From contig JAIXYN010000040.1 in NCBI GenBank assembly GCA_027490195.1, positions 1 to 64,000 on the forward strand: DNA of 64,000 bases, read 5' to 3'. Below the pieces are notes generated by a model, which was not told where the DNA came from, searched no databases, and saw nothing but the letters and a program-made list of their open reading frames with translations. The position numbers and the translations under genes are program-made. This document shows positions 13,808 to 20,650 of this stretch, one piece after another; position 1 is the first letter of the stretch; the number at the start of each line of letters is the position of its first letter. This stretch comes from Verrucomicrobiaceae bacterium. Lineage in GTDB: Bacteria; Verrucomicrobiota; Verrucomicrobiia; Verrucomicrobiales; Verrucomicrobiaceae.

Positions 13808-15577
13808 CTATGGAGCCACGTTTGGCACGAGGTGTTCGGCGGCTTTGGCGGCTTCGGCGCGGAGCTCGGGATTGAGATTTTTCTGTTCGAATTCGCGGCA
13901 CCAGCCTTTGATTTCAAGCTCGTTGAAGATCTTGCCGATGACGCGTCGGAGGAGGCCTTTGAGGTTGGGGAGTTCGACTTCCTGGAGGGAGCGGATGGCG
14001 GCTTCTTTGTAGCTTTCGAGGAGGGTCATGGCCTTCTCATGGGCACCGCTGTCGAGGGCCCAGTCGCGGATGGTGGCGTTGTCGGGCTTGGTTTTGGCGA
14101 CGCCGTTCCAGAGGGCTTCCATCTGGTCTTTGACATCGCCTTTGCCTTTCTCGCGCAGGAGGGAGAGGACAATGCTGGGGCGCATGTTCCATTCGTTGCC
14201 GGCGGCGGAGTCTTCGCCGAGATCGTCGAGGTCATCGCGGATCTGGTAGGCGATGCCGAGGTTTTCGCTGTAGGTGTGAAGGGCGTCGGCGCATTCATCG
14301 AGCTGGCCGGCGAGGGCGGCACCAACCTTGAGGGCGACTTCAAAGGCGGGTGCGGTTTTACTGCGGAAGATTTCGAGCACCTGCGTGCTGCTGAGAGCGA
14401 CGGGATGACGTGTCCAGAGGAGTTCCGCGCCCTGACCGATGCAGAGTTCACGCTGGCCTTCGGCGGCGACGAGGATGGCGGCGCTGCGGATGTGCGCGGC
14501 GGCGTCATTGTCGGCGAGGAGGCGGTAGCCTTCACCGATGAGGAGGTCACCGATGTTCAGCGCGACGGGGATGCCGTGCTCGGTGTGGAGGGTGGTTTCG
14601 CCGTAGCGCTCAGCATCGCCGTCCTCGATGTCGTCATGAACGAGGGAGGCTTTGTGGAAGATTTCGACGGCGATAGCGGCTTTCTTGACTGTGTCAGAGA
14701 TCGGGCCTTCGGGGTCTTCGCGCAGGGCCTGATAGGCGGCGACGGTGAGGAAAGGACGCCAGCGTTTGCCGGCACGGGCGAGCCATTCGCGGGCGATGTC
14801 GTCGCTATGGCCGCGTGAGGGGCCCATGAGTGCGTTGAGGGAGTCCAGGGTGAACCAAGTCTTCACCTCGTCATGCAGCGCGTTCAGATTGAGGCGGCGG
14901 GTTTTGTCGTCGCTGGTGAGGTGGATGTAATCCCAGACCCAATCGATATCGACGAGGGTGTCGATGCAGTCGTCCTGCAGCAAGGGCACGGCAACGGCAG
15001 GAATGGCAGCGGCCTCGATGTAGGGGAAGGTACGCTCAAGCACGGCGAGGCAGGAAATGCCCACGATGGCCTCGATCTTGCCGGTCTGGATGAGGGACAT
15101 GACGATGGCGCTGCCTTCTGCCACGAGGACGGCGTAACCGAGCTTTTCAGCTTCGTTTTGGAAGTCCTGGATCGAGCAGAGGCCGCACTGCTTGCAGAGG
15201 AGGCCGAATTCATCAAAGGGGGCCGGGCATTTGCTTTCAACGCGGAGGCACTTCGGCATCAGCAGCAGACGCTTTTCAAACGGGACGGTGGCGAGTGATT
15301 CGCGCCAGGTTTCATTGGCGAGCAGCACGCCGACGTAGTCACGATGAATCTTGTCGATGGCGTGGATGGTGATGATTTTGTCCGTGTGCTCTTGCAGATC
15401 GGCCAAGGGCACCGGGGGGACGAGTTTTTGCTCTTCAGCGTAGGCACGCACCCAGCCCAGGATCTGATCACGCTCCGGCTTGGTCTGCGGAATGTTTTTC
15501 TTGGGCTGGCGGATACGGCGGTTCAGACCGGGAATGGGCGGCGGCAGGGCAGCAGAACGAACGACGGCAGCAGACAT
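13808..15577 (-). CDS. fusion of a DUF116 cysteine-rich domain with a trans-isoprenyl (polyprenyl) diphosphate synthase
   Basis: 589 residues, nearly twice the length of a normal prenyl synthase. Residues about 60-225 match DUF116 as I know it: a cysteine cluster C110, C117, C128, C131, C134 (in LLCKQCGLC) plus VGISCLAVLERTFPYIEA with C176, suggesting metal or Fe-S binding. Residues about 235-589 are an all-alpha prenyl synthase with GKRWRPFL (270-277), first Asp motif LVHDDIED (D315, D316) and second motif YQIRDDLDD (D448, D449, D452). The catalytic half should condense IPP with an allylic diphosphate. Chain length and the role of the fused domain are unknown. Confidence 0.85.
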   Translation of the reverse strand: MSAAVVRSAALPPPIPGLNRRIRQPKKNIPQTKPERDQILGWVRAYAEEQKLVPPVPLADLQEHTDKIITIHAIDKIHRDYVGVLLANETWRESLATVPFEKRLLLMPKCLRVESKCPAPFDEFGLLCKQCGLCSIQDFQNEAEKLGYAVLVAEGSAIVMSLIQTGKIEAIVGISCLAVLERTFPYIEAAAIPAVAVPLLQDDCIDTLVDIDWVWDYIHLTSDDKTRRLNLNALHDEVKTWFTLDSLNALMGPSRGHSDDIAREWLARAGKRWRPFLTVAAYQALREDPEGPISDTVKKAAIAVEIFHKASLVHDDIEDGDAERYGETTLHTEHGIPVALNIGDLLIGEGYRLLADNDAAAHIRSAAILVAAEGQRELCIGQGAELLWTRHPVALSSTQVLEIFRSKTAPAFEVALKVGAALAGQLDECADALHTYSENLGIAYQIRDDLDDLGEDSAAGNEWNMRPSIVLSLLREKGKGDVKDQMEALWNGVAKTKPDNATIRDWALDSGAHEKAMTLLESYKEAAIRSLQEVELPNLKGLLRRVIGKIFNELEIKGWCREFEQKNLNPELRAEAAKAAEHLVPNVAP

Positions 15578-16873: not shown

Positions 16874-17073
16874 GGCAGGAAATTACGTCTGGCCAGGGCC
16901 GTCTCAACCATCAAAATGCAAGTGTGCGGCAAAATGGCGAACCATTTACCCCCGTCAGCAGCAGGCAAGACGGCGGCAAAAGACAGACTCAAGGCGATGG
17001 CTCTGCACCTGAAAGAGTGAAAAACCGCCACCCATGTCAAGCCCATGCTACCTGTTTATCTTGAGCCGGCGTT

Positions 17074-17102
17074 TTGACAAAATGCCTCTTTCATGCGTAA
17101 AT
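17074..17102 (+). promoter_or_regulatory. candidate promoter of the structured RNA region
   Basis: Perfect TTGACA (17074-17079), 17-bp spacer, GTAAAT (17097-17102). Transcription would begin about 17109, at or just before the first hairpin of the folded region. Confidence 0.4.
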
Positions 17103-17360
17103 GGTGGTGCAGCCGAAGCTGCCATTCCTTCCAGAATGGTGGCGCGGGGGACCCAACAACCCTGAGTCGAAAGACCCAGGGCGGGGCGAAGGAAGGTGGG
17201 TAACCACCGACCAGTCCACTTCCAAGGACCAGTCCGACAGCTAACCTCGCAGGCGACATTGGAAGGGCGATCCTATGCCCGACGCGAGTGCGCCGGGACC
17301 ATGGTCTCCCCAGAACCACCGCACCCGCGAGTGGACGGGAAACTGTCCGCAGAACGGGGG
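17103..17360 (+). ncRNA. candidate structured RNA (or long folded 5' leader), unidentified
   Basis: Successive stems on the plus strand: GCAGC-CGAA-GCTGC (17109-17122); CCATTC-CTTCCA-GAATGG (17122-17139); CCCTGAGTC-GAAA-GACCCAGGG (17160-17181, one A·C); GGTGG-GTAA-CCACC (17195-17208); CTCGC(17246-17250)/GCGAG(17284-17288) enclosing GGGC/GCCC; and GTGGACGG-GAAA-CTGTCCGC (17331-17350, two G·U). Three stems are capped by GNRA loops (GAAA, GTAA, GAAA) only on this strand. A consensus-like promoter sits just upstream. A weak 6-bp pairing of 17103-17108 with 17553-17558 could close a larger RNA of about 455 nt. It does not show the conserved sequences of RNase P RNA, tmRNA or SRP RNA. The 3' end is unknown. 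The 17209-17571 remainder and 16874-17073 hold no credible gene. Confidence 0.4.
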
Positions 17361-17571
17361 CCTTCGAGACCCATACCCATGAACTGCCAAGAGAACCCAA
17401 GCCGCATCTCCGCAAGCTTGACCGATGAATCCGCCTGGTCCCCAGCGCCCGCATTCTCCCCGCTGAGCTGGCTTCACGTGATCTTCCAACCCGACTCCGA
17501 CCCAGCCTTCAACGCTGCGCCCGAGGAAAGCGCCACGCACTGCGCTGAATGAACCACCCACTAGCAACTCC

Positions 17572-18111
17572 ATGACTCAATCTGAAATCATCATGACTCA
17601 TCATCACTTCAAAGCCCCCTGGGGCCGCACTTTGCTCATCATTTCCATTCTCACGACCTTCGTGATGCTTGGGATTGCCATCTCGCTCACGAGTGGCAGG
17701 CAGACACCGGGATTCATCAGCCTGCCTGCATTTTTCCCACCTGCCCTGCCCGCTGCATTCGTGCTGCTGATTCCGCTAGGTGCACTGCCATTCATCATTC
17801 GCGGCTATGTCGTGACCAAGGACGGCATCCTCATCAAACGCCTGTGGTGGAATACGGTGCTGCCGTTTGACGAAATGAGCTCCGTGGAAGTGGAACCGCT
17901 CGCGCTTTGCCACAGCTTTCGCACCTGTGGCAATGGCGGCCTGTATTCCTTCACCGGCTACTACTGGAACAGGCAGCTGGGCCACTTTCGTGCCTACGTC
18001 ACGGATCTGAACCGCACCGTCATCGTGCGCATGAAGAACCGCACGGCCGTGCTCTCACCTGATGATCCCGAGGCTTTTGCCCGCGCCGCCACCGCTCATC
18101 TCCATGCCTGA
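17572..18111 (+). CDS. small membrane protein with a bacterial PH domain, 179 aa
   Basis: Two hydrophobic helices (about 20-40, LLIISILTTFVMLGIAISL; and 56-77, ALPAAFVLLIPLGALPFII) precede a soluble domain of about 95 residues. Its strand pattern (GYVVTKDGILIKRLWWNTVLPF, HFRAYVTDLNRTVIVRMKN, VLSPDDPEAFA) is typical of bacterial PH domains, which end in a helix after '.PDDPE.F...'. Another in-frame ATG at 17593 is possible. It lies 38 bp before the SPFH gene, so a membrane-microdomain role shared with that protein is likely but inferred. Confidence 0.7.
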   Translation: MTQSEIIMTHHHFKAPWGRTLLIISILTTFVMLGIAISLTSGRQTPGFISLPAFFPPALPAAFVLLIPLGALPFIIRGYVVTKDGILIKRLWWNTVLPFDEMSSVEVEPLALCHSFRTCGNGGLYSFTGYYWNRQLGHFRAYVTDLNRTVIVRMKNRTAVLSPDDPEAFARAATAHLHA

Positions 18112-18149: not shown

Positions 18150-19931
18150 ATGAACTCCATTCTCTTATTTGCTTACGAGCATTGGCTCATCACGCTCTCA
18201 GTCGTCGGCATTGTCATTCTCTACTTTGTCTCCTGCGTTTACATTCCGGAGAGCAAAGTCGGTGTGGTCATCAAACGCTTTGCCTTCAGAAACCTGCCTC
18301 CCGGTGAAATCATCGCCCTCAATGGTGAAGCGGGTTACCAGGCCGACACGCTGGCCCCGGGCCTGCATTTCGGTTTCTGGATCGTGCAGTACCACATCGA
18401 GAAAGTGCCCATGGTCAGAGTCCCGCAGGGAGAGCTGGCTTTGATCGTCGCGAAAACCGGCGCCGCCATTCCACCCGGCCGCATCCTGGCGCGCACGGTG
18501 GATTGTGACCATTTCCAGGATGCCCGTGCCTTTCTCAAACACGGCGGTGAAAAAGGCCGGCAACTCGGTGTTATCACCGCAGGTTCGTATCGCATCAATC
18601 CTGCGCTCTTCACCATCATCACATCCGAAAATGCCCAGCAGCACGGACTTGAACCGCAGCTGCTGCGCATCCGCCATGTGGATCCCGATCTCGTCGGCAT
18701 CGTGACGACGCTGGATGGCATGCCCATAGAGCAAACCGAAATCGCTGGAGCCATCGTGCCCGGACATGACAACTTTCAAAATGCGCAGGCCTTCCTAGAT
18801 GAAGGTGGCCATCGTGGCCTGCAGGAGCAGGTGCTTCTCAGCGGCCAGTGGAACATCAATCCGTGGTTCGCGCAGATCGAGCAGGTGCCCATGTTTGAGA
18901 TTCCCATCGGCCATGTCGGTGTCGTGATCTCTTATGTCGGCAAGGCGCACCTGGACATCAGCGGACCTGAGTTCAAGCACGGCGACCTCGTTGACGTGGG
19001 CCACAAAGGTGTGTGGGGCAAACCGCTGCTCCCGGGCAAGCATCCTGTCAACACGCGCATCATGCGCGTGGAGTTGGTGCCGACCACCAACATTGTGCTG
19101 AACTGGGCCACGCGAACTGAGGCGCACCACTTTGATGCAAAGCTCAGCAGCATCACCGTGCGCTCGCGCGACGGCTTCGCCTTCAACCTCGATGTCTCAC
19201 AGATCATCCACATCGGCGCGAACGAAGCCCCCAAGGTCATCAGCCGCGCGGGATCGCTGCAAAACCTCATCGACCACGTGCTGCAGCCCATCGTTGGCAA
19301 CTACTTCCGCAACTCCGCGCAGGACTACACGGTGCTGGACTTCCTAAGCGCCCGCAGCCAGCGCCAGGGTGAGGCCGCCAGCCACATCGAAACCGCGCTG
19401 CATGAGTATGACGTGGAAGGGATCGATACGCTGATCGGCGACATCACACCGCCTGAATCGCTGATGAAAACGCAGACGGACCGCAAGCTGGCGGAAGAGA
19501 GCCGCAAAACCTATGAGATGCAGGAAGCTGCCGAGAAACAGCGCCAGCAGCTCGTGCGCCAGACCTCGCTGGCCGACATCCAAAACCAGGTGGTGAGCGC
19601 CGAGCAGGGCGTCAACATTGCCGAACTCCACGCCACGGCTGCCGTGAAGAAAAGCGAAGGTGAAGCCGCCTCCACCCGGCTGCGTGCGAGTGGTGAAGCG
19701 GAAGCCATCCGCGCCACGGGCCAGGCCAAGGCCGACGCCTATCAAGCTGGCGTGACCGCCCTTGGTTCCGATGTGTATGGCATGCTGCAAGCCTTCCAGA
19801 TCATCGCCGACAAAAACCTGCGCGTCGTCCCCGACGTGCTGGTGAACAGCGGGCCTAACAGCAGCGGCATCCTCGACGCACTCATGGCCATGCTCACCCA
19901 ACAGCGGGCGTCTCCGCCCAGCCTGAACTGA
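18150..19931 (+). CDS. SPFH/Band 7 (flotillin-like) membrane protein
   Basis: 593 residues. An N-terminal membrane segment (about 12-30, LITLSVVGIVILYFVSCVYI) is followed by two SPFH-like stretches. An internal duplication is visible: DCDHFQDARAFLKHGGEKG (about 112-130) and GHDNFQNAQAFLDEGGHRG (about 207-225) are each followed by a SYRINP/QWNINP segment. The canonical SPFH core is near 290-420 (ITVRSRDGFAFNLDVSQIIH). The C-terminal third is an Ala/Glu/Gln-rich coiled coil (MQEAAEKQRQQLVRQTSLAD...) that mediates oligomerisation in flotillins. Likely forms large assemblies in the inner membrane, with the PH-domain protein as neighbour. Confidence 0.85.
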   Translation: MNSILLFAYEHWLITLSVVGIVILYFVSCVYIPESKVGVVIKRFAFRNLPPGEIIALNGEAGYQADTLAPGLHFGFWIVQYHIEKVPMVRVPQGELALIVAKTGAAIPPGRILARTVDCDHFQDARAFLKHGGEKGRQLGVITAGSYRINPALFTIITSENAQQHGLEPQLLRIRHVDPDLVGIVTTLDGMPIEQTEIAGAIVPGHDNFQNAQAFLDEGGHRGLQEQVLLSGQWNINPWFAQIEQVPMFEIPIGHVGVVISYVGKAHLDISGPEFKHGDLVDVGHKGVWGKPLLPGKHPVNTRIMRVELVPTTNIVLNWATRTEAHHFDAKLSSITVRSRDGFAFNLDVSQIIHIGANEAPKVISRAGSLQNLIDHVLQPIVGNYFRNSAQDYTVLDFLSARSQRQGEAASHIETALHEYDVEGIDTLIGDITPPESLMKTQTDRKLAEESRKTYEMQEAAEKQRQQLVRQTSLADIQNQVVSAEQGVNIAELHATAAVKKSEGEAASTRLRASGEAEAIRATGQAKADAYQAGVTALGSDVYGMLQAFQIIADKNLRVVPDVLVNSGPNSSGILDALMAMLTQQRASPPSLN

Positions 19932-19944
19932 GTGCGATACAGCG

Positions 19945-19977
19945 GGCGGATTGTGGCATGAAGCGCCACGATCCGCC
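19945..19977 (+). terminator. strong hairpin after the SPFH gene
   Basis: GGCGGATTGTGGC and GCCACGATCCGCC form a 13-pair stem (one T·G) with a 7-base loop, 13 bp after the stop codon. Only a short TT follows, so termination may be partial or the structure may protect the mRNA end. Confidence 0.45.
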
Positions 19978-20052
19978 TTCGCAGGCAAGGCACTTGAGAA
20001 CGAATCTGCACACACACGTTGGCTTTTTCAATTAGCTGTGATACCAGACCGA

Positions 20053-20514
20053 ATGAAAAAGCTTTCCGTCTTCGCTTTGATTCTCGGTTGCAGCCTTGGC
20101 CTTCTGTCTCTTTCCAGCTGCAGTGACGCCAGTTACATCACACCCGAGATGACGTTTGCGTATGAGGATTTCGGCACCGACGCCATCGCGAGCCGCCTGC
20201 TGGGCCCCCGAGGGAAGGACATGCAGATCGTGGTGCGCTTTGGCACCACTCGGACCACGCCGAAACCTGGCGGCCCCGATCTACGGTTTGTCAGCACCCA
20301 ACAGGCCATGTACTTCCTGCGCAGCAACGTGCACAAACTGCCCAAAACGCCGGAAAATGCGGAGCTGCGCCAGCGTCTCCAGGCGACCTATAGCCGCCTG
20401 TATGACGTTTATTCGTCCAAACGCAGTTCATTTCTCTCCGCGCCCTCCTCCAGCTATGGCAGGGACGGCATGAACCGTGCGCTCATGATGCCGCCGATGC
20501 CACCCTCAATCTGA
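20053..20514 (+). CDS. hypothetical lipoprotein, 153 aa
   Basis: The ATG at 20053 gives a lipoprotein signal: MKKLSVFALILGCSLGLL followed by the lipobox LSSC (Cys about residue 22). An upstream in-frame ATG at 19951 would place the signal internally and is rejected. The mature 130 residues show no family I recognise; they include MQIVVRFGTTRTTPKPGGPD and a helical region near 85-105, then a Ser-rich, Met/Pro-rich end (MMPPMPPS). It is predicted to be anchored to a membrane by lipid. It may share a transcript with the SPFH gene, though the hairpin between them argues for some separation. Confidence 0.65.
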   Translation: MKKLSVFALILGCSLGLLSLSSCSDASYITPEMTFAYEDFGTDAIASRLLGPRGKDMQIVVRFGTTRTTPKPGGPDLRFVSTQQAMYFLRSNVHKLPKTPENAELRQRLQATYSRLYDVYSSKRSSFLSAPSSSYGRDGMNRALMMPPMPPSI

Positions 20515-20576: not shown

Positions 20577-20650
20577 GCGGGTGTAGCTCAATGGTAGAGC
20601 AGGTGCTTCCCAAGCATCATACGTCAGTTCGATTCTGATCACCCGCTCCA
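20577..20650 (+). tRNA. tRNA-Gly, anticodon CCC
   Basis: The acceptor stem GCGGGTG pairs with CACCCGC; the D arm is GCTC...GAGC; the anticodon stem GGTGC/GCATC encloses loop TTCCCAA (anticodon CCC, reading GGG). The T arm GTCAG-TTCGATT-CTGAT follows. The discriminator base is T, and CCA is encoded. All arms fold with normal lengths. Confidence 0.93.

Follow-up and report, generated by a model that had tools for sequence, protein, structure and literature searches.

The structured RNA at 17101-17270 (+) of the window (the whole 64,000-nt stretch of DNA that was analysed) is, by its covariance-model match, the aptamer of a known riboswitch class, the c-di-AMP (ydaO/yuaA) class, and not a new family. 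The less familiar part is its target and a conserved expression platform. The aptamer stands in the leader of an operon that encodes a small ORF (ORF1), a bPH_5 protein and an SPFH protein. We lean towards the reading that this leader is a translational OFF riboswitch for c-di-AMP, in which a downstream strand (S) would pair with a strand (B) just 5′ of the first start codon. The aptamer, its covariation, the covariation of the S-B helix and the link to the SPFH operon are supported by comparison of sequences from relatives. The ligand would presumably lower the expression of the PH and SPFH genes.

When the whole window was compared with Rfam by cmscan, RF00379 was matched at 17101-17270 (+) over its full model (1-134 of 134), scoring 45.5 bits where the cut-off is 38 (E 2.3e-7). 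The one other match above cut-off was a tRNA at 20577-20647. A permissive Rfam scan of 16874-17700 gave no other RNA family at its own cut-off. The first-pass annotation had taken this region for a candidate new structured RNA that might act in cis, as a leader for PH and SPFH. The structure is borne out by the match and by the covariation described below, and the leader by a riboswitch upstream of the operon. In contrast, the RNA is not new, because the covariance search returned a known family, matched along its entire length with a score that exceeds the curators' cut-off, an outcome that the annotation had itself set against novelty. Several stems do lie within 17110-17350 (+), and three hairpins in one orientation are closed by GNRA loops (GAAA 17169-17172, GUAA 17200-17203 and GAAA 17339-17342). 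These many stems and loops are what spoke for a new RNA or a ribozyme. However, the loops cap hairpins of the riboswitch or its platform, and nothing suggests a ribozyme; the RF00379 match rules out a new RNA class or ribozyme, and we give that proposal practically no credence. A repeat element was also rejected, since the region has no inverted repeats, has two short direct repeats of two copies each, and is single copy in the genome. Folding energy stood out little (z -1.84 for 17074-17571, 498 nt in length, and z -2.15 for 17110-17270) and was set aside as too weak to lean on.

The window's own genome (6.98 Mb) contains one RF00379 match, that of the window, and one diadenylate cyclase domain (PF02457). 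Of the 68 genomes sampled from this family, 64 contain the domain; in G011 (91% complete), the riboswitch is present and a cyclase match is absent. The window aptamer presumably binds c-di-AMP. A variant aptamer, with the same fold and a different ligand, is very improbable. It would suit the moderate scores of the group (37.8-60.8 bits) and the fact that the usual K+ transporter target is missing here, but it sits poorly with a full-model match above cut-off, with core strands that are invariant in 26 leaders, with the other members in the phylum, which mostly precede K+ transport genes, and with the cyclase in the genome.

Among the 68 family genomes, RF00379 was found in 28, in 27 of them above cut-off; stricter filters were used, with which weak matches are lost. 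An alignment (A2) was made of 26 leaders, each spanning the aptamer and the sequence up to the first start codon. Because the contigs of L014 and L016 stop before a first gene, these two were left out of A2 and of the S-B counts given below. The tested structure was drawn from the window's own sequence and consisted of the aptamer, the pseudoknot and one platform hairpin. Standard pairs were found in 92.7% of 1299 cells in these homologous leaders, against 35.4-48.8% when the partners were slid by 1-3 columns, a control that favours the drawn structure because the structure was taken from one of the aligned sequences. Covariation in relatives, a check that the first-pass annotation had suggested, was found: two-sided changes occurred at 16 pairs (shuffled mean 11.4), as many as in 1 of 500 shuffles, and the covariation score was 0.280 versus 0.150 in shuffles, none of 500 being as high.

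The 10-pair aptamer hairpin at 17118-17143 (+) (17118-17127 with 17134-17143, loop CUUCCA) was paired in 99.6% of cells and had two-sided changes at 6 of 10 pairs. Its loop CUUCC (17128-17132) is invariant in all 26 leaders although the stem varies freely, and may possibly make a contact. The 5′ strand of the core helix (17144-17149, +), whose partner is 17245-17250, was paired in 94.2% of cells, and five of its six pairs are invariant. Crystal structures of the class show a pseudoknot in which a hairpin loop pairs with the 3′ tail. In the window, the loop strand CUUCCAA (17219-17225, +) can form 7 pairs with 17259-17265, paired in 96.2% of cells; the support for this pseudoknot is conservation, because zero two-sided changes were found in it.

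Upstream of the aptamer, the first-pass annotation had described a consensus promoter. Its -35-like box, TTGACA at 17074-17079 (+), stands: 25 of 28 relatives, all but L014, L016 and L018, carry it no more than 45 nt upstream of the aptamer. The -10 part does not fare as well. The hexamer 17 nt past TTGACA is GTAAAT (17097-17102, +), a poor match to TATAAT (3/6), and the consensus scanner reported no promoter. Of the 25 TTGACA-bearing relatives, 16 have GTNAAT at this spacing. Transcription is likely to start just 5′ of the aptamer. A terminator-like hairpin at 17068-17086 (GGCGTTTTGACAAAATGCC) overlies the -35 box; shuffles average one such site.

The region had also been said to hold no credible ORF. 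However, the ATG at 17379 opens a frame of 57 aa (ORF1, 17379-17552, +) at a position that in many relatives is occupied by a zinc-ribbon gene. By position and by comparison with relatives, this frame is the zinc-ribbon counterpart, apparently decayed here; it had no Pfam match. When the proteins at this place in four relatives were tested against DUF6487 (cut-off 24), one passed with 27.7 and three fell below (23.7, 20.2 and 19). CxxC motifs numbered two or more in the ORF1 of 12 of the 26 leaders and one in 3, and were missing from 11, namely the window's own, six close relatives (L017, L019 and L021-L024), L004-L006 and L015. Pairwise dN/dS of ORF1 was 0-0.36 in five CxxC-bearing pairs and higher, 0.37-1.05, in six pairs of the window's own group, which suggests relaxed constraint in this group. 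Furthermore, ORF1 ends early in L009 and L029, and the SPFH copy of G040 (L040) has an internal stop; these are signs that the operon is decaying in some lineages.

ORF1 is followed by the bPH_5 gene (PF10882) at 17593-18111 (+). The start at 17593 is preferred over that at 17572 because the sequence MTHHHFKAPWG is common to relatives. Next is the SPFH/Band_7 gene at 18150-19931 (+), which encodes 593 aa (PF01145, 91.2 bits) and whose product is 99% identical to the SPFH proteins of two MAGs, one from Prosthecobacter (L102) and one from Verrucomicrobiaceae (L082), as befits a verrucomicrobiote. A lipoprotein-like ORF with no Pfam match lies after SPFH at 19951-20514 (+). Elsewhere in the window, a single 589-aa ORF at 13808-15577 (-) combines DUF116 with a polyprenyl synthetase domain.

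The segment between the aptamer and ORF1 contains a platform hairpin at 17278-17297 (+), which has 8 positions with one mismatch, is paired in 80.8% of cells and has two-sided changes at 4 of 8 pairs. It is followed by strand S (UGGUCUCCC, 17302-17310, +), identified by duplex folding, RNAalifold and relatives, by a GNRA hairpin at 17333-17348 (+), missing in L026, L027 and L029, and by strand B (GAGACC, 17366-17371, +) just 5′ of the start codon (ATG 17379). Because strand B is misaligned in A2, S-B pairing could not be counted there and was counted by duplex folding in scripts. A helix of 6-11 pairs was found in 26 of 26 leaders, and in 7 of them the AUG lies inside the helix. Where S reads GGUCUC, B reads GAGACC in most leaders (with a bulge in L024), and where S reads GGUUUC, B reads GAAACC in most (a wobble in L012, a shifted helix in L025 and L028). 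These changes are compensatory. The mean energy of native S-B pairs was -10.97 kcal/mol versus -9.60 kcal/mol when partners were swapped, and none of 5000 permutations was as good; within the 19 type I leaders the figure was 1 of 2000 permutations, and for the 14 distinct ones among them 11 of 2000. These permutation figures overstate the case because the sequences are related.

A helix that would hide the ribosome site is found beyond the 26 family leaders, in 11 leaders of two other families. In these (f2 and f82, all but L118), a strand after the aptamer pairs with sequence that precedes the first ORF, less cleanly in L121 and L123 than in the others. The letters of these helices differ between species, and the native mean energy was -14.3 versus -11.3 kcal/mol when swapped (3 of 5000 permutations). 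In L106, a Pedosphaera MAG where the SPFH start comes soon after the aptamer, GGUCUCC was seen by eye opposite GGAG before the ATG. In L120 (family f81), no convincing helix was seen near the SPFH start, which is 344 nt away. At K+ transporter loci, we judged one of seven decoded cases convincing (L069; the other six include L062, L072, L074, L075 and L079).

RNAalifold applied to A2 paired S not with B but with part of the aptamer core (strand A, 17146-17155, +), a possible alternative partner that inspection by eye had suggested as well. The A-S pairing was possible in 99.1% of 234 cells versus 47.4-70.1% when slid. A2 held zero two-sided changes for A-S, however, and shuffles scored equally for covariation. 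In energy, shuffled sequences seldom equalled the native one (3/100 or less) for 4 of 21 distinct leaders, and the other 17 stood at 20-81/100. Because A-S is pairable in nearly all cells but shows no covariation and is mostly not above shuffles, we regard this pairing as plausible and propose it tentatively. When five core pairs were enforced in a model that leaves out pseudoknots, S-B became more probable: its mean probability was 0.48 instead of 0.25, 15 rather than 5 of 26 leaders exceeded 0.5, and the window's own leader rose from 0.41 to 0.95. A coupling of the S-B helix to the aptamer is thereby supported in part. In the same model with the core enforced, S-B stayed below 0.05 in 9 of 26 leaders and dropped in L027, while the start region was on average hardly less open (0.57, from 0.62).

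We propose that the transcript, which probably begins just 5′ of the aptamer, would act as follows. At low c-di-AMP, S could pair with core strand A, and the start region of the first gene would be open. When c-di-AMP is bound, the aptamer core and the pseudoknot would be stabilised and A would be occupied. S would then pair with B just 5′ of the ORF1 start, ribosome entry would be hindered and the operon would go down. OFF behaviour of this class is reported in the available parts of PMC6488665 and PMC9337991. In the window's own lineage, ORF1 might serve mainly as a translated leader that controls PH and SPFH through translational coupling or Rho polarity. The decay of ORF1 counts against our best explanation here, because the regulated start is then not that of an intact gene.

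This decay also bears on another possibility, that the aptamer belongs to the class and its control was lost or relaxed in this lineage together with ORF1. CxxC is gone from the window's ORF1 and from those of six close relatives, and dN/dS reaches the 0.37-1.05 range given above in six pairs. However, the same relatives retain the aptamer, S, B, the start codon and the next gene, and we consider loss of control improbable. Less improbable, though still unlikely, is a c-di-AMP riboswitch that acts at transcription, either because an untranslated C-rich ORF1 region is exposed to Rho or through a terminator that was not recognised. The stretch from ORF1 to PH is 40% C and 21% G, the ORF1 protein is decayed while its frame is still open, and termination is the mode demonstrated in Bacillus thuringiensis, as given in the available parts of PMC6488665. 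Against this, the scan reported no terminator-like site past the aptamer, and S-B covaries at the ribosome site, also where SPFH is the first gene. Translational OFF control remains the reading towards which we lean. Control of translation by this class is not new in principle, because the ydaO class is listed among those whose organisation can act on the RBS, at least in the portion of a review that was available (PMC10907184).

The link between riboswitch and operon was then followed across taxa. In the family sample, PH and/or SPFH lie downstream at 26 of 28 riboswitch loci, where the riboswitch is in leader position, and the remaining two loci end at contig ends. A close SPFH orthologue (at least 72% identity) is found in 25 of 68 genomes, and in all 25 it lies just downstream of RF00379. 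The other 43 genomes include 40 without RF00379; the exceptions are G047 and, at contig ends, G001 and G066. In G047 (L110, G047:C126:85500-93000), the riboswitch and PH are kept and a lipoprotein-like ORF comes next; no SPFH match was found in the whole genome. No RF00379 was found near the distant SPFH paralogues (54-56% identity) of G003, G009 and G066 (L111-L113).

A set of named genomes provided 28 loci, 26 of which were scanned for RF00379 (L101 and L102 were left out). Because many are the same contigs, the named loci and the family loci are not independent. In one batch of 16 loci, every SPFH gene has RF00379 ahead of it. In a second batch, with ten scanned, it precedes SPFH in L096, L097 and L106, and was absent in L098, L103, L104, L105, L107 and L109, which are labelled as other phyla (only 199 nt upstream were available for L104); upstream sequence was lacking for L108. 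In L097, a zinc-ribbon-like ORF of 92 aa lies between the riboswitch and SPFH.

Of 386 genomes sampled from the order, 41 contained RF00379, and 13 of these lie outside the window's family. SPFH followed the riboswitch in 10 of these 13 by tblastn, on which the SPFH calls for L115-L124 rest without a Pfam scan. At L119 and L122, the ORFs that follow RF00379 are SPFH-like but truncated, with about 96 and 107 aa. The downstream ORF of L118 resembles a KimA-type permease.

In the phylum sample (387 genomes, stricter filters), RF00379 was found in 24 genomes, in 23 above cut-off. Two loci of the window's own family were excluded, and at the other 22 the target was taken to be the longest ORF with an ATG start no more than 900 nt downstream. 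Transport proteins were AA_permease_2 at 8 loci, which we take to be KimA-like K+ transporters, K_trans at 3, TrkH at 3, KdpA at 1 and a Na+/H+ exchanger at 1. SPFH was found at 4 (2 by Pfam and 2, L078 and L080, by tblastn and not Pfam-scanned), citrate synthase at 1 and a porin at 1. The last two, L061 with citrate synthase and L071 with a BBP2 porin gene, have to our knowledge unusual targets for c-di-AMP riboswitches. The phylum mostly deploys the riboswitch as expected, and SPFH is the dominant target in the window's own order. For this order, in which close relatives are named Prosthecobacter, Brevifollis and Verrucomicrobium, we are evenly divided on a wider reading, namely that the c-di-AMP riboswitch mainly serves an SPFH membrane-scaffold operon, through a platform that hides the start site in at least three families. 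If this were true, the zinc-ribbon ORF would be a regulated leader gene.

Bacterial SPFH proteins are widespread membrane scaffolds with poorly known roles. Because riboswitch control indicates the conditions under which a gene is needed, SPFH operons would join the osmotic and K+ response of Verrucomicrobiota if this riboswitch answers to c-di-AMP. The platform would also provide a set of seemingly translation-acting c-di-AMP riboswitches, which could be compared with the terminator type. In the open literature searched, whose coverage was incomplete and in part limited to portions of texts, SPFH was not found as a target of c-di-AMP riboswitches; flotillin does co-occur with c-di-AMP and riboswitch. 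Verrucomicrobia are among the named hosts of the class in the available parts of PMC6488665, which cites Block 2010 and Nelson 2013.

The SPFH protein of the window resembles QmcA and other SPFH/Band_7 proteins in its Band_7 domain, with a weak sequence match to QmcA in the PDB (E 7.6e-4). Unlike QmcA, it has 593 aa and is encoded beside bPH_5 and a zinc ribbon. The RNA resembles the ydaO/yuaA leader (RF00379) in its match to the full model, core helix, pseudoknot, hairpins, leader position and the cyclase in the genome. Known targets of the class are K+ and amino acid transporters, cell wall genes and osmotic genes, according to the portion of a review that was available (PMC7266159). In contrast, the copy in the window precedes a zinc ribbon/bPH_5/SPFH operon, and a ribosome-site helix is seen here, with no terminator seen past the aptamer. 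Finally, the kdpFABC riboswitch of Bacillus thuringiensis, as described in the available parts of PMC6488665, has the same class of aptamer, and OFF control is proposed for both; however, that riboswitch uses an intrinsic terminator, whereas the platform in the window sits at the start codon.
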